Positions 4,645 through 23,241 of a stretch of DNA of 36,049 nt are shown here, piece after piece. Position 1 is the stretch's first letter; each line of letters begins with the position of its first letter. Both the position numbers and the translations under genes were made by a program. The notes under the pieces are model-generated. The model was not told the DNA's origin. It saw only the letters and a list, made by a program, of their open reading frames with translations, and did not search any database. Source of the DNA: a virus; IMG/VR virus record IMGVR_UViG_3300022752_005685, positions 1-36,049 of that record; one strand, 5' to 3'.

Positions 4645-5770
4645 ACAATTTGACACATTTATCGAAAACATTTCTGACCGCGCAGACCAAGAGAAACTAT
4701 TTTTCACAGCCGGCATCGTCGAACTGCTACGTCACACGAAGGCGCAGAAAACAGTTTTGGCGTTAGCAGAGTTGCTGGTGTCGTTACCGGCGGTTGATTG
4801 GGACCGCATTCCGTTCTCCATTACGAAGACGCTGCTGTCCAAGACTTACACGTCATTGGTGTGGTCGTGCGGTGTCCCGGTCAAGATGACCGACGAGATT
4901 TTGCTGCTGGGCTTGTTGGAATTTCTGCGCCGTTTTCAAACAGAACCGCCGACCGAGCAATTGCTCAAAGACATCGTTAAAAAGATTGCGACGGCGGTTG
5001 CAGATGAAATAAAGACCGAGAAGCCCCCGGCATTAAAAGCCAACCCAGTTCCGGAACTTTTTAACCACCGGCTATCGCAGCGGGTGTTCGAGCCAACGAA
5101 CGTTACGGACGATATTCTGGCGAAACTTGACGCCAAACTCGTGTATTTCTCCGCGCCGATTTCTGAGAAGTCGATGGGGCCAGAGATACGCGGCTTGGCT
5201 TTTGACAACGGCACCAACCGCTATTTCGTATTGCTCGAAAGCGGCGAGTTCATCACCGTTCCAAAAGACTACGAACACTTACGCATTGTAAAATGCGACG
5301 TGCTGTTTCCCGGCGCGCCGACGTCGTTGTTTCTTGCGCTTGGCGTTGCCGCGCCATTGTTAGAAACCTATGCTGTCATTTCAAAGCCGCAACTGGAGTT
5401 CATCATCAATGGTGGACTCGGCAAGATGTTGCATCCATTGCACGGCGGCGTCGCCGGCGTCGAGGATATCTCGGCGTTGGAGCATGCGTTTGACATCGGT
5501 CAAGAGTCGGCTATGATTGGCGTCCCGGGTGCGACGGGGCCGGTTGGTGCTACCACGCGGTTTCCCATTCCAGACACGGATTTGTTTGTCGTGCTGACCG
5601 CGAGTCGTGATGCGCATGGGCCGTACAGTACCGCGGAATTAATCCGCGCAGATGCCAAGGGCGCTGACACAGTCTTGATGCGGCACGAAACGCCGCGGCT
5701 GTATTCGTTGCGCGGCGTCTATTTGTTTCCCTTGAAAGACCGTTTGATTTCACTCGTAATCATTTTTTGA
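4619..5770 (+). CDS. Hypothetical protein (383 aa)
   Basis: The start is taken at ATG 4619; an in-frame ATG at 4601 lacks a visible ribosome site. The start overlaps the end of the HTH gene by 26 bases. The N-terminal 150 residues are mostly helical (TAGIVELLRHTKAQKTVLAL; LLGLLEFLRRFQTEPPTEQL). The C-terminal half is beta-rich with Gly/Pro turns (GVPGATGPVGATTRFPIP, then LFVVLTAS). There is no signal peptide, metal motif or nucleotide-binding motif. It is unrelated to any family I recognise. It may work with the upstream regulator because the two are translationally linked. Confidence 0.65.
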   Translation: MSDDNYLTEQFDTFIENISDRADQEKLFFTAGIVELLRHTKAQKTVLALAELLVSLPAVDWDRIPFSITKTLLSKTYTSLVWSCGVPVKMTDEILLLGLLEFLRRFQTEPPTEQLLKDIVKKIATAVADEIKTEKPPALKANPVPELFNHRLSQRVFEPTNVTDDILAKLDAKLVYFSAPISEKSMGPEIRGLAFDNGTNRYFVLLESGEFITVPKDYEHLRIVKCDVLFPGAPTSLFLALGVAAPLLETYAVISKPQLEFIINGGLGKMLHPLHGGVAGVEDISALEHAFDIGQESAMIGVPGATGPVGATTRFPIPDTDLFVVLTASRDAHGPYSTAELIRADAKGADTVLMRHETPRLYSLRGVYLFPLKDRLISLVIIF

Positions 5771-6053: not shown

Positions 6054-6631
6054 TGTACCTGTTTGTCGATACTGAGACAGGAGGTCTGACGCCGCAACAC
6101 AGTTTGCTCACTGTGTCGTGCATCGGTGTCGACGCGAAATTCACGATCATCCCCTCGCTGGATTCGCCGCTGGGGTTGTACATGAAGATCAAGCACGAAG
6201 AGTACGCGCTTACAGCAGGCGCGCTCTCCGTGAACAAAATAAACATCGCAGAGCACGACGCAGATGCGGTGCCGGTTAAACAAGCCAGCGCCATGCTCGT
6301 CGCTTTTATTGAGGAGATGATTGCAAAGTCCGGCAAGGCGCGGTTGATTCCAGCCGGGCACAACGTCGGCTTTGATATCAATTTCCTTCGGGCGTATTTG
6401 CTGACTGACGCGCAATGGGACAAGTACTTCACGTACCCAGCGTTGGACACAGCAGCCGTAGCGCGGTTTTTAAACGCAGCCGGGCTTCATGCCGGCGGTT
6501 ACTCTTTGACACGCTTGCGCGAGTTGTACGTGCCGCACATGGTCGGCCAGTTGCACAACGCCAAGACAGATAACGTCACCACGATTGAACTTGCAAACAA
6601 ATTTGCTAGCATGGTCGCCCGACGACATTAG
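6053..6631 (+). CDS. DnaQ-like 3'-5' exonuclease (DEDDh family)
   Basis: All three exonuclease motifs are visible: ExoI FVDTETGG with Asp6 and Glu8, ExoII GHNVGFDINFL with Asp108, and ExoIII HNAKTD with His168 and Asp173. This is the DEDDh arrangement of DnaQ/epsilon and RNase T enzymes, which remove nucleotides from 3' ends using two metal ions. At 192 residues it is a stand-alone exonuclease domain. The polymerase at 20083 has its own exonuclease domain, so this enzyme more likely acts in repair, end trimming or RNA processing than as that polymerase's proofreader. It is the last gene before the non-coding tRNA/repeat region. Confidence 0.88.
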   Translation: MYLFVDTETGGLTPQHSLLTVSCIGVDAKFTIIPSLDSPLGLYMKIKHEEYALTAGALSVNKINIAEHDADAVPVKQASAMLVAFIEEMIAKSGKARLIPAGHNVGFDINFLRAYLLTDAQWDKYFTYPALDTAAVARFLNAAGLHAGGYSLTRLRELYVPHMVGQLHNAKTDNVTTIELANKFASMVARRH

Positions 6632-6796
6632 CGGGAGGGCTGGCTCCCCGTTGCCGCGCCGAAAGTCGCTGCTTTTCCGGCGACTCCAGTGCCCCAGTCG
6701 GAGGTGGGTCATAACGCCGAAGTCGACAGCGCTCAAACAAGACGGACTCCTTTCAAGCGCGTGTCGAAAGTCGTAAACGCAAGGATGCACGCGCAG
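6632..6796 (+). other. Non-coding gap upstream of the tRNA, with small hairpins
   Basis: No convincing gene lies here. Directly after the exonuclease stop, GGGAG (6633-6637) can pair with CTCCC (6644-6648), but no T-tract follows. AGTCGC (6664-6669) can pair with GCGACT (6680-6685) around a 10-base loop. A short motif recurs: CGAAAGTCG appears near 6660 and near 6764, with a shorter relative CCGAAGTCG near 6718. The stretch could hold tRNA leader sequence, a processing signal or a small RNA. I see no strong promoter. Confidence 0.35.
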
Positions 6797-6868
6797 TTGC
6801 CCGATGGTGTAACGGTAGCACAAGGGATTTTGGTTCCCTTTGTCTAGGTTCAAATCCTAGTCGGGCAT
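6797..6868 (+). tRNA. trnQ: tRNA-Gln (anticodon UUG)
   Basis: A full 72-base cloverleaf can be drawn. The acceptor stem is TGCCCGA/TCGGGCA with a U1-A72 pair, typical of tRNA-Gln. The D stem is GTGT/GCAC, and the anticodon stem AGGGA/TCCCT encloses TTTTGGT with anticodon TTG at loop positions 3-5. A 5-base variable loop follows, then T stem CTAGG/CCTAG with loop TTCAAAT. The discriminator is T and CCA is not encoded, so the host must add it. It reads CAA, and possibly CAG, codons. It is the only tRNA in the window and sits just before the repeat array. Confidence 0.95.
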
Positions 6869-6874
6869 TTTCAT

Positions 6875-7383
6875 GGCATGGTCAGGTCAGGCAAAGTTGG
6901 GCAGGGTTTGGTATGGCGTGGATTTATTTGCCGCCCACTCGGGGTGTGGTCGTGGCACGGCAAGGCGCAGCATCGCAGGGTTCGGTCTAGTCCGGCAGGG
7001 CACGGCGTGGATTTATTTAACAACCAATTGGGGCGTGGTCGGCGCACGGTTCGGCCCGGCAAGGTTCGGTCTATTCCGGCAGGGCGGGGTTTGGCGCGGC
7101 ATGGATTTTTTTGATGTCTAATCAGGGTGTGGTCAGCGCAGGGTCCGGTATGGTCAGGCACGGTCTGGTGGGCCGAGGCGTAGTCCGGCGCGGCATGGTT
7201 TTATCTCACCTACAGTTGTGGCGTGGGCACGGTAGTCCGCGGCTCGGTTCGGTGCGGTCCGGTTATGTTCGGCATGGTTCGGCGAGGCATGGTTTTATTT
7301 GACGCACATTCGTGGTGTGGAGTCAGGTAGGGCAAGGCGCAGTATGGTCCGGTTTGGCAGGGTAGCGCATGGAGAGATTTTTT
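6875..7383 (+). repeat. Tandem array of six GG-pentamer modules (period about 94 nt)
   Basis: The + strand is very G-rich and largely built of GG followed by three other bases, repeated in 5-base phase (for example GGCATGGTCAGGTCAGG at 6875). Each module ends in a T-rich block after GG(C/G)-TGG: 6923-6929, 7012-7018, 7106-7112, 7199-7206, 7293-7300 and 7378-7383. The block ends are 89, 94, 94, 94 and 83 bases apart. An interruption of about 11 bases without GG phasing follows each block, then a GTGG-type restart. Modules 2 and 3 share a nearly identical stretch (GGTTCGGTCTA/T, then TCCGGCAGGGC). A period not divisible by three argues against coding. Confidence 0.85.
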
Positions 7384-7384
7384 A

Positions 7385-7747
7385 ATGTGCGCAAAGTCAA
7401 GGAAGAAAAACAAATCAAACATTTTCAATCAAGAGTGGCGGCCAGACAATTACAACCTACGTATGGCCAGCCCGTGTTGGGAAGAAAAGCGACAAGAGCG
7501 GTTGCAGATCGATGATTACATGTGTCAAACATGTTGTCACGACGGTACAGATTGGCCGCTTGAAGTGCACCATAAAACATATGAGAGATTTTGGCACGAG
7601 AACGTTCAAACAGATTTAATTACACTTTGTAGGCAGTGCCACAACGCGGTAACTGACGTTATCCGCCGCAGGCGATACGCCAAGCGGAAACTTGACGGTA
7701 ACTACATTGTTTTGTCAAAACAGACACGAAAGGCTGTTCCAAAATGA
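7385..7747 (+). CDS. HNH endonuclease (120 aa)
   Basis: A compact HNH/zinc nuclease. Cys47-x2-Cys50 is followed by 'LEVHHKTYERF' carrying the catalytic His62-His63, a central polar residue region (HENVQTDLITL), and Cys82-x2-Cys85-His86. This is the classic ββα-metal arrangement with two structural CxxC pairs. Members cut double-stranded DNA and serve as homing endonucleases, restriction enzymes or packaging nucleases. With no terminase nearby, a homing or DNA-processing role is more likely. The ribosome site GGAGAG lies inside the altered end of the last repeat module. The stop overlaps the next start as ATGA. Confidence 0.88.
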   Translation: MCAKSRKKNKSNIFNQEWRPDNYNLRMASPCWEEKRQERLQIDDYMCQTCCHDGTDWPLEVHHKTYERFWHENVQTDLITLCRQCHNAVTDVIRRRRYAKRKLDGNYIVLSKQTRKAVPK

Positions 7748-8448
7748 GTTGGAAGATTGCGCGATACGAACTTACGGGCGATTGCCCGTTGATTGTTAAG
7801 GCCCCGCAGATGGCTGATCGGTTGAATTCCTATGCGAAGGAGTTGTCGGCGATTTCGTCGAAGAAAAACAAGGTCGACGCTGATTATTTGGAGATGAGCC
7901 GGATTGAGTTTGCTGGCGGCATATACATGCACCCTGAACTAGGCCCGGTTCTTCCCGGCGATAACATCGTGGCGTCGATGATCGGCGGCGCGAAGAAGAA
8001 CAAGGAGGGCAAGATTGCCCAGAGCGCCGTTTTCCCGGCCGACCCCGGTTACTTCGCGCTTCAGTACGACGGCCCGCGCACGATTCAGGAAATGTTCGAG
8101 GATGACACGCCGCGGACAACGCCCGGCGCTGAGGGGTTTAGGTATACAGTGTCGGTTGTGCGTAACCGCAACCGGATTATTTCTACGCGCGGAATATTTC
8201 ACGACTGGTCGGCAATTGTCGACTTGGCTTACGAGTCGTCCATTGTGACGGTAAAGCAGGTGACGCGCTGGTTGGAGAAGGCCGGTACGCTTGTCGGGCT
8301 GTGTGAGCGCAGGCCGACGTTTGGTCGGTTCAGTGTCCGCGTGATTTCCGAGAACGTTGCAAACGTTGAGGGCGAAGACAATATTGCCATTGACGAAGCA
8401 GGCGAACCTAAGAAGCGCCGCTCAAAATCCCTTTTGAAGGCTGAGTAA
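7744..8448 (+). CDS. Conserved phage protein of unknown function (234 aa)
   Basis: It begins SWKIARYELTGDCPLIVKAPQMAD and has a basic C-terminal tail (KKRRSKSLLKAE). A distinctive segment near residues 174-200 reads EKAGTLVGLCERRPTFGRFSV, a G-[LI]-x4-P-x-[FY]-G-x-F-x-V pattern that I associate with an unnamed phage family. The gene at 14552 ends in a similar pattern. The preceding region (GIYMHPELGPVLPGDNIVAS) looks like a beta/loop scaffold. It is translationally coupled to the HNH nuclease. A RAMP-like fold is conceivable but not shown. Confidence 0.7.
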   Translation: MSWKIARYELTGDCPLIVKAPQMADRLNSYAKELSAISSKKNKVDADYLEMSRIEFAGGIYMHPELGPVLPGDNIVASMIGGAKKNKEGKIAQSAVFPADPGYFALQYDGPRTIQEMFEDDTPRTTPGAEGFRYTVSVVRNRNRIISTRGIFHDWSAIVDLAYESSIVTVKQVTRWLEKAGTLVGLCERRPTFGRFSVRVISENVANVEGEDNIAIDEAGEPKKRRSKSLLKAE

Positions 8449-14551: not shown

Positions 14552-15049
14552 GTGCAAGAAATAACGATCACAATTCGATTCAATCGTGTGTGCTTGGGCG
14601 CGGCAAAAAAGCGGCGGCACGGACAAGTTCTATTCTGCTTCGAACGTGACCCGTCTGGGCGCGTTATGTTTATGTCGTCGGCGTGGCTGACGTGCATGCG
14701 ATATGCAGCCAAGATTGCCAACAGACATCACTCTAGCGTCAAAAAAATAGATTGGTGCCCGGTCGTTGTTGGCGAGCCGCGTAACGACTGGCGGCGGACC
14801 ATCCTGACGCCGAATCAAAACAACGACGGCATGCGCAGTCATTATGCGTTGCATGAAGCGTTTCGCCCGGGAGATACGGTGGTCATTTCCGCCGTGCTGC
14901 CCGATGAGATACCATTGGCGGACTTCAACCATTTGCTGACGTTGGTCGGCAAATACAGAGGCTTTTCGCCGTTTAACACTACGCAAGAGAAATATGGGAC
15001 ATTTGAAGTCATATCAATCGAACCAGTCGCAGGCCCGGGAAGCGACTAA
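14552..15049 (+). CDS. Conserved phage protein of unknown function (165 aa)
   Basis: A GTG at 14552 directly follows the previous stop, with a weak AAGAAG ribosome site. A longer frame from 14390 would overlap the upstream gene by 161 bases and is less likely. The protein starts with a beta-strand (QEITITIRFNRVCLG), then GRVMFMSSAWLTCMRYAAKI with a His-rich ANRHHSS, and ends in LVGKYRGFSPFNTTQEKYG followed by TFEVISIEP. That ending parallels the 7744 protein. I have the impression of a family seen widely in proteobacterial phages without a known function. A RAMP-like fold is possible. Confidence 0.65.
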   Translation: MQEITITIRFNRVCLGAAKKRRHGQVLFCFERDPSGRVMFMSSAWLTCMRYAAKIANRHHSSVKKIDWCPVVVGEPRNDWRRTILTPNQNNDGMRSHYALHEAFRPGDTVVISAVLPDEIPLADFNHLLTLVGKYRGFSPFNTTQEKYGTFEVISIEPVAGPGSD

Positions 15050-15050
15050 T

Positions 15051-16583
15051 ATGAATTTCGCCGGCTATCAGGTCGTCATAAACAAGATCGGAAACGTACT
15101 CAAAATCACAGGCGCCGGCGGAACCGCTTTAAATCCAGAACTTGCGGACCGGCTAACAAGAGATTTGCGATACGACCACATTGAGCAGTTGCACGGTCAA
15201 TCGCGCAAGAACCCGATCACTGGTCAGCGGATGTTTTTTCAAACCCGCGAATACAAACTGTACCGCATCGAAAACGGACACGTTGTGCTGCTCAGCGGTT
15301 ATTTGGCGCGCATGGTGAGCCGGCTCAAGAAACTGGGTTGCGCGTTCACGATCATAGATTCGACCCCAACGCGCAAGCGCCCGAACTGCTATGTTCCGCA
15401 GTGGGAAAATTTGGCCGGCAAGATTGAGTTTCGTCCGCGGCAGGAAGAATTAATGCGGCTTATTTCTCGCATGCCATGTGGAATTGTTAAAGCAGTGACG
15501 GGTTTCGGCAAAACCACATGTCTTGGCGCCGCGGCTATCTTGTTTCCCGAAGCGCGTATTGACGTAATCACAAAAAGCGTCGACGTTGCGGAGCGCATTG
15601 TGCGCAGCCTAAAACGTTTTGTGCCCAAAGTCGGCATGATCGGCGACGGCTTTAAACATCGCGAGCGCGTGACGGTTATTACAGCCGGCAGCCTTCAGCA
15701 CGCCGACGGCGAAGCAGACTTCATGTTTGCCGACGAGGTTCACCAACTTGCCACGGTTAACTTTTCTACGGCGCTTGCTGCGCGTTACCGCAACAGCCGC
15801 AACTTCGGCATGAGCGCGACGCCATACGCACGCATGGACAACGCGCACGCGATTCTGGAGCCGCTCTTCGGCCCGATGATCTTCGACCTCCCGTACCAGC
15901 AGGCGGTCGAACTGGGCCTCGTTGTGCCGGTGCAGGTGCGCTGGCTTCCAATCCGCTTGACACACAACCCCGCGGAGAGGTACAAGCACCGCGTCGCACG
16001 GAAGCGCTACGGCATCTGGACGAACCACGCCCGCAACAGCATTATCGCCAGTGCCGTGCGCGACTATCCCGAGAATTACCAAATTCTCATTCTGGTCGAG
16101 ACCATCGAGCACGCCGTGCACCTTGGCTCTCTTTTGCCAGAATTCACGCTTATGTATTCGCAGATGGCGCCCTATGACTGCACCGGTTATAAGCGTCTTA
16201 AACTTTTGCCGCAGGATTACAAGCCGCTCACAGACGTGCAGAAACACGACATGCGATCGGCGTTCGAGAGCGGCGAACTGCGAAAAGTAATCGCGACGGA
16301 TGTGTGGGCGACGGGTGTTGACTTTGAGCAATTAAACGTATTGGTGCGCGCCGATGACCGAGACAGTGACATTGTGGACGTACAGGGCCCGGGGCGTGTA
16401 AGCCGGACATATACGTCACCCGAAGGAGTGCGAAAAGAATACGGCGAAGTTATTGATTGCATGGACACATTTGACCCAACTTTTTATCGCAAGAGCACAG
16501 GACGCCGTGACAGTTACAAATTGTTGGGATGGGAGCAGAACTGGAATGAAGCCGCAAGGAGTTGGCGCAAAAAAGAGGAGTGA
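15051..16583 (+). CDS. SF2 DNA helicase (UvsW-like)
   Basis: Superfamily 2 motifs appear in order: motif I VTGFGKTT (149-156), motif II DEVH (228-231), motif III SATPY (from 255), and motif VI QGPGRVSR (445-452), preceded by IATDVWATGVD (motif V). The N-terminal 110 residues form an accessory domain. This arrangement matches the phage UvsW/RadD-like group, which unwinds branched DNA, drives branch migration and dissolves R-loops. ATG 15051 follows the upstream stop by one base with GGGAAG in front; the frame is open back to 14994 but overlaps the previous gene. It fits the T4-like recombination set nearby. Confidence 0.88.
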   Translation: MNFAGYQVVINKIGNVLKITGAGGTALNPELADRLTRDLRYDHIEQLHGQSRKNPITGQRMFFQTREYKLYRIENGHVVLLSGYLARMVSRLKKLGCAFTIIDSTPTRKRPNCYVPQWENLAGKIEFRPRQEELMRLISRMPCGIVKAVTGFGKTTCLGAAAILFPEARIDVITKSVDVAERIVRSLKRFVPKVGMIGDGFKHRERVTVITAGSLQHADGEADFMFADEVHQLATVNFSTALAARYRNSRNFGMSATPYARMDNAHAILEPLFGPMIFDLPYQQAVELGLVVPVQVRWLPIRLTHNPAERYKHRVARKRYGIWTNHARNSIIASAVRDYPENYQILILVETIEHAVHLGSLLPEFTLMYSQMAPYDCTGYKRLKLLPQDYKPLTDVQKHDMRSAFESGELRKVIATDVWATGVDFEQLNVLVRADDRDSDIVDVQGPGRVSRTYTSPEGVRKEYGEVIDCMDTFDPTFYRKSTGRRDSYKLLGWEQNWNEAARSWRKKEE

Positions 16584-20082: not shown

Positions 20083-23000
20083 ATGGCTTCCGCTGTGTCT
20101 TTGAACCACAGGCATGCCAGCGCACTATACGACAACACAGGAGCGGAACTCACCGCAAACCTGTTTCCGATGGTGCCGCTTGATTCAGCCGGTATGCCTC
20201 CCGCAGGCGCCGACTTTATTGCTCACGCTGTCGCGCTCGGTGACGACCCGACAGTCGTGACTGTGAAGAACAAGAAGAAACTTCCAGTCGGTGAAAAACT
20301 GGAGCATCTGTATCGGGCTGCGCTGTACGACCCGGCGTTTTCAATTCCGATCATGTTGAAAACGGGTTTGGAGGTTGTGCAGTTTCTGCCGGGCCACCTG
20401 ATCAAATACGGCGAAGGTGACGACCCGATCTACGGTCCGAAACCGGCCCGCGTCATGATTGTCAGTAAGATTCCCGGCGCCACAGAACTGCGCGATCGAA
20501 GCGCTGTAACTGGCCCGGTCATGGAACCTTTTTTCAAGGCGCTTCGTCACTGTGGTTTCAACCCCGCCGATTACGCGGAGTGGTACATCACGTATGCGTG
20601 CAAGCACGGTTCGCCGACGCCGGACACGCCGGCTGTGCCCGCTGCGTGGATTAAGAATTGCGCGGTGTTGCTGGCACAAGAAATTCGGCTCGTGCAGCCC
20701 GACTACATTTTGTGTCTGGGTAACGAGGCTACGAAGGCTGTTTTGAACACGACGGCAAGCGTATCTGATCTGGCCGGTCGCGCCACAACGCTCAAGACGT
20801 ATGACGCCGACGGCAATGTACGCGATGTCAAAGTCATGTCGATGATGCACCCGGGTTACGTCGTACGAAAACCCGAAGCCTACGAAGACTTTCGCGGTCA
20901 GTTGGCGCGGTTTAAAGATTTGATCGAAGACAAAGAAACCGTCGCCGAAGAAGTTGATCACGCAGACATCTACACAGAAGACATGTTGCGCGCCACGGTC
21001 GACGCCATGCTGGCTGACCACGATCCAAATGCCAACATCATTGCCGTCGACTGCGAATGGCACGGCGATTATCCGACAGAAGAAGGCGCGTATCTGCGGA
21101 CGATTCAGATATCAAACAAAGACAAGTGGGCACGAACGATCGTGCTTCGACATCAAGGAGGAGCCGATGCGTTCAAACCAAATCTGGAGGCGGCGCGCGA
21201 ACAACTTTTGCGGTTGCTCAAAAGCACCCCTGACAGGCACGTACGTGCGGGCGGTCACTTTTTCCGTGCTGACTTGCCATGGCTTATTAATTTTGGCGTG
21301 GATTTACGTCCGGAGTATGCCCCCGCCGCCGACCCAGATGACCGCACGCACGGCGGCTGGGATACCAGTCTCATGTACCACGCCGTAAACGAGTGCGCTA
21401 AATACGGCCTCGATGTTTGCTCGATGCGGTTTACGAGCGCGCCCACGTATTGGGACGAATTGAACGAGTGGCGTAAACGACACCGCGCCGAAAACAAACT
21501 CAAAGCCGGCGACATGGCCGGATACGGCGACTGCCCGGCGCACGTGTTGCACCCGTACGGCGCGTACGACGCCGACGTCACGCGCCGCATCATGATGCAT
21601 TTCTATGGCACGAACGGCCAAGATGGAGCCATCGCCCGCGACCAGCACGGGCACGATTGCTGGCTGCCTTATTGGACCGCACACAACGCGTCTCTAGCGT
21701 TTCTTGAGATGGAACTCACCGGACTCGTTATAGACCGCAAACGGGCCGACGAGTTGACGACATTGTTCATGAACACGCAAGAACGCTTGTTGGCTGAAAT
21801 TCGGCAGGAACTCAATTGGCCGGACTTTAATCCAAAGAGTCAGCCGCAGTTATCGGTGGCGCTGTTCGGCGAGAAGTTTTCCAATCGGTACACAAATCCG
21901 CCTAACGTCCCGGAGAATGCAAACCTATTGAATTTGCGTCCCGTGAAAACAACCGGCAAGCGTCCGGTGTTGTGGCATGAAATGGGTTGGCGCGGTGTAA
22001 ATCAAGAGACAGCCACACCGAGCACAGACAAGGAAAGTCTGGGCATTCTTGGGCACATCAACGCTACGGCCGCTAAAATCCGCGACTACAAGTTTATCAG
22101 TCAGGTTTTACAGTCGGTGTTGCGGAAGCCCTCCACCACGGATGACGGAGAATACGAAGTCGATGAAAACGGCAATTACGCATATGAAAAAGGTCTTGTC
22201 GGCTGTGTCCACTCCGACGGTAAAGTACGTACTCACTTTTTTCAAACAAAAGAAACTGGCCGCGCATCGTCCTCACGACCTCCTCTGCAAAACCTCTCGT
22301 CCCGGCGAGAGAACGATTACGAGCGCATCCTCCAAGACCAGTACCAGCACCCCGTCCGATCGATCCTTCGCGTCCCGCCCGGGCATGTCGGCATCGAAGC
22401 GGACCTCACTGGTGCGGAACTGGCGGTCCTAGCGTGGCTAGCCCAAGACGAGAATATGATTGATCATATTCGCCGCAATCTTTTGCCAGACACCCACCCC
22501 GATCATTACGACATCCACTCGCGACAGGCGGTGAAAACATTTAATCTCACCGACATCGTGCCGACGTCAAAAGGCATGAAGGCTGCCGGCAAGAAAGGTT
22601 TACGTGTCGCTGCCAAGAACGTGAACTTCGGTATTCCGTACGGTCGCGGCGCAGAAGCCCTTGCTCGTCAATGTAAAGAAGAGGGCGTTGACGTTACGGC
22701 CGATCAGTGCCAAGCGATGATCGAGGCTTATTTCACGTCTTACCCAAAGACGCGCACGTTCTTAGCCGAATGCCGCGCGCGGTCTCAAAACCCCGGTTGG
22801 CTGATGGGGCCATATGGTCGCATTCGGCGTTTCGTTCCGTCAAAAGACAAAGCGATTCGCGGCGAGCAAGAACGACAAGCACAGAACTTCCCAATTCAAG
22901 GTGGAGTCGCTGATGCCGTGTCTATTGCGCTGGCAAATTTCTATCGGTATCGCGAGGAGCACCCCGAGATTGATTACAAGATTGGGTTGCAGATTCACGA

Positions 23001-23241
23001 CGCCATTGTGTTGATTGTTCCGATTGAGCACGCTGAACAAGTGTACAAAGAGGTAATCCCGCAATGCATGATTGAAAATGTGCCGTTCTATCCGCGCAAA
23101 CTTGACGGCTCGCTGATTAAGGCTGGCCCGTATCATTTTGGTTCGTCACGCGAAGTGTTTGTCCACTGGGGCGAAACGTTGAATGACGCCGAAGCAAAAG
23201 CGCTGGGTCTGCATTGGTTGGCCGAGAATTCTGGGGCTTGA
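20083..23241 (+). CDS. UDG-like / 3'-5' exonuclease / family A DNA polymerase fusion
   Basis: Three domains are visible in 1,052 residues. Residues about 120-285 resemble a family 4-type uracil-DNA glycosylase fold (VMIVSKIPGATE; PDYILCLGNEATKAVL; MMHPGYVVRKP), as in the SPO1-type phage polymerases. The exonuclease domain has AVDCEWHG (Asp323, Glu325) and YGAYDAD (Tyr492, Asp496). The polymerase palm has motif A ADLTGAELAVLAW (Asp774), motif B RVAAKNVNFGIPYG (Arg841, Lys845, Phe849, Tyr853) and motif C QIHDAIVL (His972, Asp973, Ala974). The usual Glu after Asp in motif C is Ala. It is the likely replicative polymerase. The glycosylase-like part lacks a canonical GEAPG motif and may only bind DNA. 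Confidence 0.92.
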   Translation: MASAVSLNHRHASALYDNTGAELTANLFPMVPLDSAGMPPAGADFIAHAVALGDDPTVVTVKNKKKLPVGEKLEHLYRAALYDPAFSIPIMLKTGLEVVQFLPGHLIKYGEGDDPIYGPKPARVMIVSKIPGATELRDRSAVTGPVMEPFFKALRHCGFNPADYAEWYITYACKHGSPTPDTPAVPAAWIKNCAVLLAQEIRLVQPDYILCLGNEATKAVLNTTASVSDLAGRATTLKTYDADGNVRDVKVMSMMHPGYVVRKPEAYEDFRGQLARFKDLIEDKETVAEEVDHADIYTEDMLRATVDAMLADHDPNANIIAVDCEWHGDYPTEEGAYLRTIQISNKDKWARTIVLRHQGGADAFKPNLEAAREQLLRLLKSTPDRHVRAGGHFFRADLPWLINFGVDLRPEYAPAADPDDRTHGGWDTSLMYHAVNECAKYGLDVCSMRFTSAPTYWDELNEWRKRHRAENKLKAGDMAGYGDCPAHVLHPYGAYDADVTRRIMMHFYGTNGQDGAIARDQHGHDCWLPYWTAHNASLAFLEMELTGLVIDRKRADELTTLFMNTQERLLAEIRQELNWPDFNPKSQPQLSVALFGEKFSNRYTNPPNVPENANLLNLRPVKTTGKRPVLWHEMGWRGVNQETATPSTDKESLGILGHINATAAKIRDYKFISQVLQSVLRKPSTTDDGEYEVDENGNYAYEKGLVGCVHSDGKVRTHFFQTKETGRASSSRPPLQNLSSRRENDYERILQDQYQHPVRSILRVPPGHVGIEADLTGAELAVLAWLAQDENMIDHIRRNLLPDTHPDHYDIHSRQAVKTFNLTDIVPTSKGMKAAGKKGLRVAAKNVNFGIPYGRGAEALARQCKEEGVDVTADQCQAMIEAYFTSYPKTRTFLAECRARSQNPGWLMGPYGRIRRFVPSKDKAIRGEQERQAQNFPIQGGVADAVSIALANFYRYREEHPEIDYKIGLQIHDAIVLIVPIEHAEQVYKEVIPQCMIENVPFYPRKLDGSLIKAGPYHFGSSREVFVHWGETLNDAEAKALGLHWLAENSGA

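Follow-up and report, generated by a model that had tools for sequence, protein, structure and literature searches.

The window, i.e., the entire 36,049-nucleotide stretch of viral DNA analysed here (IMG/VR record IMGVR_UViG_3300022752_005685), carries a long intergenic repeat array on its plus strand (6875–7371), flanked by a tRNA-Gln gene and an HNH nuclease gene, the position that a preliminary description of this DNA had given it (Table 1). The HNH stop codon and the start codon of the next gene, labelled vipr for the family to which we assign it below, overlap in an ATGA (7744–7747). Elsewhere in the window, the ORF at 20083–23241 encodes both a uracil-DNA-glycosylase-like domain (residues 117–266) and a family A DNA polymerase showing a 3′–5′ exonuclease match.

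Table 1 Features of the array locus; Y, C or T; NN, the variable dinucleotides of successive units, with the last one of each tract in brackets.
Feature	Position	Strand	Details
tRNA-Gln (TTG)	6798-6868	+	ARAGORN, Rfam; ends 6 bases 5′ of tract 1
Putative vrRNA tract 1	6875-6919	+	9 units; NN = AT CA CA AA TG AG TT AT (GT)
Putative vrRNA tract 2	6954-7008	+	11 units; NN = AC AA GC AT AG TC CT CC AG AC (GT)
Putative vrRNA tract 3	7043-7102	+	12 units; NN = AC TC CC AA TC CT CC AG GG TT GC (AT)
Putative vrRNA tract 4	7137-7196	+	12 units; NN = AG CC AT CA AC CT GG GA GT CC GC (AT)
Putative vrRNA tract 5	7226-7290	+	13 units; NN = AC AG GC TC TC GC CC TA TC AT TC GA (AT)
Putative vrRNA tract 6	7326-7370	+	9 units; NN = AG AA GC AT CC TT AG AG (AT)
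Inter-tract element (GGCRTGGWTTTATTT, ~11 variable bases, GGNGTGG)	6915-6953, 7004-7042, 7098-7136, 7192-7230, 7286-7324	+	alignment
Last T-rich block (GAGATTTTTT)	7374-7383	+	directly before HNH start codon
HNH nuclease gene, 120 aa	7385-7747	+	PHROG HNH E 6.9e-10
vipr gene, 234 aa, phrog_4652	7744-8448	+	RAMP-fold guide protein (predicted)

The array advances in GG-N3 steps on one strand and falls into six modules, and the strand-asymmetric, G-rich character reported for it is borne out by counting. Fifty GG pairs lie five bases apart, compared with 14.7 ± 5.0 (maximum 37) in 2000 first-order Markov shuffles of the array stretch itself, while the best score in the rest of the window is 7; between 6869 and 7384, 87 GG dinucleotides stand against 15 CC. 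Two computations that the preliminary description had proposed both returned a signal, with self-identity of the array peaking at lag 5 and at lag 94 (0.52) and GC skew reaching its window maximum (0.26) at 7001–7500. The T-rich ends of the modules start at 6920, 7009, 7103, 7197, 7291 and 7374, reproducing exactly the described spacing of 89, 94, 94, 94 and 83 bases. The repeat unit proved sharper than the GG-NNN originally read: the pentamer phase stands, and position 3 is C or T in 66/66 units (35/31), making the unit GGYNN (GGY-NN). These units are distributed over six tracts of 9–13 each. Position 1 is G in 54 and position 2 in 63 of them, so that 12/66 lack the first G, next to no base preference is seen at positions 4 and 5 (0.10 and 0.09 bits), and the leaders contain one-base phase shifts. 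Tracts 2 and 3 (6954–7102) have four consecutive dinucleotides in common (TC CT CC AG) in a similar context, as if tracts duplicate and then diverge in NN.

A conserved T-rich element follows each tract. It belongs to an inter-tract element whose copies share 81% mean identity in the alignment and which we propose to combine the tail of one tract with the leader of the next. Folding of this element was no better than that of shuffles; stems can be drawn by eye, with energies equal to those of the shuffled sequences. An Rfam search of 6500–7800 returned no RNA family apart from tRNA, no hammerhead reached the gathering threshold in 19 array loci, and DNA similarity to phage records was confined to the tRNA-Gln. 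In the closest relatives (L125, 58%, and L126, 52%), the order array, HNH, vipr is repeated and T-rich blocks again separate the tracts, the NN letters of which differ from those in the window. Thus, of the tRNA/HNH position for which related genomes were to be searched, the HNH side recurs, whereas adjacency to tRNA-Gln does not: since both relatives have a tRNA-Thr instead, located further away, tRNA-Gln is not a conserved part of the locus.

The gene at 7744–8448, absent from the preliminary description, holds the key to the array. Its product is 33% identical over 200 residues to Vipr of Escherichia phage SUSP1 (E 2e-33) and matches the solved structure of that protein (PDB 36pp, chain 36pp_D) with an E-value of 1.5e-25 as a single sequence and 4.3e-43 as a profile. 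An AlphaFold2 model of the window protein (mean pLDDT 91.7, pTM 0.83) found its best solved matches among Csm3/Cas7 subunits (6ifl_F, E 1.8e-5, probability 1.00), a distant likeness with TM-scores of 0.3–0.46. The C-terminal AG..vG..RP..GRF is conserved; 11 sequences were used for the alignment of relatives, as a 63-sequence alignment had no sufficiently conserved stretch. PHROG lists phrog_4652 as of unknown function; the family apparently corresponds to Vipr, and its annotation could be updated.

VIPR, described as an older relative of CRISPR, pairs the RAMP protein Vipr with vrRNAs of 9–16 YNNGG repeats and a 3′ tail (PMC13142463, bioRxiv 2026.04.26.720920). Its hallmarks are an ancestral RAMP (RRM core, G-loop, thumb) and, beside vipr, repeats in which GGY is conserved and NN variable, the 3′ tail being invariable and of conserved structure; an accessory-protein gene (vap, with vap1–6 distinguished) also belongs to the locus (PMC13142463). 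The vrRNA is bound by Vipr. Within every pentamer, only NN base-pairs with the double-stranded DNA target, GGY remaining unpaired, and a single target base is left out between successive dinucleotides, N1N2 x N3N4 x ... (PMC13142463). We file the window as VIPR because of the homology to SUSP1 Vipr, the Cas7-like model and the same style of array; the window's tracts also lie inside the published range of unit numbers. Judged by sequence and predicted fold, the array very probably comprises six vrRNA (guide-RNA) genes of a phage-borne VIPR system whose Vipr is encoded at 7744–8448. The preliminary description, which knew of no named element with this layout, is thereby superseded on that point (PMC13142463, 2026). 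Its suggestion that spacing matters more than sequence, its "structured RNA" and its "protein-phasing array" came close: the GGY scaffold of VIPR is read by protein as a register, and the NN letters form the guide.

The association between array and gene was found from both directions. A gene-blind scan of IMG/VR for GGYNN units, eight in a row, yielded at least 120 loci, whose arrays mostly keep to one strand and to intergenic space, frequently with several blocks surrounding a single gene. Among the loci listed, an iterated profile seeded with the window protein detected a relative in 88/121 sequences, and 84 of the 111 sequences with long arrays encode Vipr, usually beside the array; some of those lacking it are short records or break off close to the array. 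In the reverse test, IMG/VR was searched with protein patterns only and arrays were sought within 2.5 kb of the best 80 Vipr relatives, 67 of which had a GG-pentamer array on the same strand and 3 on the other strand. With the window protein, tblastn gave matches in 129 of 50,697 phage records; a single-protein search for close relatives returned none. The VIPR preprint is hence supported independently, as a repeat-only scan recovers the RAMP gene and a gene-only search recovers the repeat.

These distributions bear on the roles originally considered for the array, namely a replication origin, an R-loop or a two-layer G-quadruplex. Such an element would accord with the G-rich strand asymmetry and with a contig that also encodes an SF2 helicase and further replication functions, although the helicase, once termed nearby, is encoded ~7 kb off (14994–16583), among the replication genes. 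Since arrays of this kind accompany vipr on its own strand in divergent phages, frequently as several blocks surrounding the gene, we set origin, R-loop and G-quadruplex aside as hardly tenable; a guide function, moreover, explains a GGY register with random NN. It is likewise very unlikely that the locus is a decayed VIPR whose array and genes are disused relics. The units without the first G and the phase shifts in the leaders could be taken as signs of decay, but similarly imperfect units occur in the expressed arrays of SUSP1, and the reading frames of Vipr and the HNH protein are intact, as are their conserved residues. A class 1 CRISPR-Cas system was also considered and rejected: the array has no constant long repeat, and the window proteins scanned gave no cas match.

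With the array read as VIPR, the part played by the HNH gene has two competing explanations. An HNH gene lies immediately upstream for 51 of the 168 Viprs in our tree, a proportion that is not a natural frequency because resemblance to the HNH clade guided the choice of the second set of loci. On this tree (FastTree, n = 168, with many weak inner branches), the HNH label changes 3 times, compared with 43 changes when labels are shuffled; the HNH-associated Viprs thus form essentially one clade, and a single origin of the pairing is conceivable. The HNH motif (cysteines, HH pair, D..LC..CH) is conserved, as is the place of the gene in the locus, where it is a candidate for the accessory (vap) role. 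No HNH gene was present directly upstream of vipr in SUSP1 and the other cultured phages inspected; a Bradyrhizobium plasmid does have one there. Repression is the only mode demonstrated for phage VIPR, the SUSP1 system repressing without a nuclease, and of the seven VIPR types only III and V, which are over-represented in the defence islands of hosts, encode predicted nucleases (PMC13142463). The HNH protein may therefore be a passenger, i.e., a homing-type or separate nuclease beside a VIPR system that only represses transcription, a reading we regard as quite possible: HNH genes are common in phages, and Viprs outside the clade, including that of SUSP1, do without one directly upstream. Speaking against a passenger, the gene occupies the same place beside 51 widely differing Viprs, with overlapping genes and an intact motif, and the pair recurs on the plasmid. 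We tentatively put forward the HNH–Vipr clade as a putative phage RNA-guided DNA cutter with a noncontiguous code, used against rivals. Should HNH be the effector, two small proteins and short guides reading a gapped code would make up a compact RNA-guided DNA cutter, and the clade could serve to examine how repression turned into destruction on the way to CRISPR.

In the working that we propose, the six vrRNAs would be cut from one common transcript, with the T-rich blocks serving as their tails and the tRNA-Gln possibly marking the 5′ boundary of the precursor. Vipr would then bind the vrRNAs, reading the GGY scaffold as its register and leaving NN as the guide letters. If the HNH protein is brought to the Vipr-bound site, it could cut the DNA there, and members of the HNH clade would destroy the DNA of rival phages or satellites, beyond mere repression.

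Targets were sought with the 1-nt skip of the preprint (PMC13142463). In the phage's own genome and 1.8 Mb of loci, guide matches were no better than those of shuffled guides. Against IMG/VR, nine units of tracts 5 and 3 found no exact match, and patterns of 8 units from tracts 4, 2 and 3 found 4, 14 and 5 matches, respectively, with mostly unfitting outer units; against GTDB (84,980 genomes), 10 units of tract 4 found none and those of tract 5 two, again with unfitting outer units. No target thus stood clearly above chance for tracts 2–5 in IMG/VR or for tracts 4 and 5 in the GTDB genomes, which says little, since the phage is uncultivated. Under the 1-nt-skip rule, the best partial match agrees with tract 4 at 22/24 bases; it lies at 5462–5497 of another locus (L206), close to the beginning of a phage ORF (5408–6163). 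We consider it a weak target candidate, suggestive at best; by our estimate, considering how many hits were inspected, it would arise by chance with a probability of a few per cent.

A separate observation concerns arrays elsewhere. In eight or more array loci, the vrRNA tracts are interleaved with tRNA-like minihelices of ~41 nt, each consisting of a 5–7 bp acceptor stem and a T-arm without an anticodon arm; their stems differ in sequence yet stay paired. They occur in L039 (minus strand, near 6894, 7014 and 7187), L192 (6204, 6379 and 6799) and Gordonia phage MakoManhole (L123; 1651, 2984 and 3102), and also in L008, L137, L144, L179 and L197. Searched with loosened stem criteria, 170 kb around arrays contained 15 minihelices, compared with 6 in 3.5 Mb elsewhere, a ~50-fold difference in density; of these 6, three or four are also near a vipr gene. 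The main text of the VIPR preprint makes no mention of tRNA (PMC13142463). The minihelices, reported by neither ARAGORN nor Rfam, might serve as tails or as sites at which tRNA-maturing enzymes process the RNA.

G-rich pentamers on one strand are also a property of immunoglobulin switch regions. These, however, have neither the GGY register nor a linked RAMP gene, and no kinship is suggested. The RAMPs of class 1 CRISPR systems (Csm3/Cas7) resemble Vipr of the window in predicted fold and in binding a guide RNA with periodically unpaired positions, whereas the window lacks CRISPR repeats and a cas operon, its code would be noncontiguous and the structural likeness is distant. Closer in gene arrangement is the Bradyrhizobium japonicum plasmid pUSDA123-1 (CP126019.1, 341076 onward), on which the end of the HNH gene meets the start of vipr; it is a plasmid of a cultured bacterium, compared by the gene pair alone. 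The nearest known system is the VIPR of Escherichia phage SUSP1, likewise phage-borne, with a homologous Vipr and, next to vipr and on its strand, GGY-NN tracts of comparable length; its intergenic arrays, as read from the genome, are of the same style, imperfect units included. The two differ in that the window gathers its six tracts into a single block with putative T-rich tails, while SUSP1 has a structured tail, and in that the HNH gene of the window lies upstream of vipr, while the vap1 gene of SUSP1 lies downstream. An unexplained phage repeat is thus tied to VIPR, a system known so far from one 2026 preprint (PMC13142463), of which the window possibly holds a nuclease-bearing phage variant.
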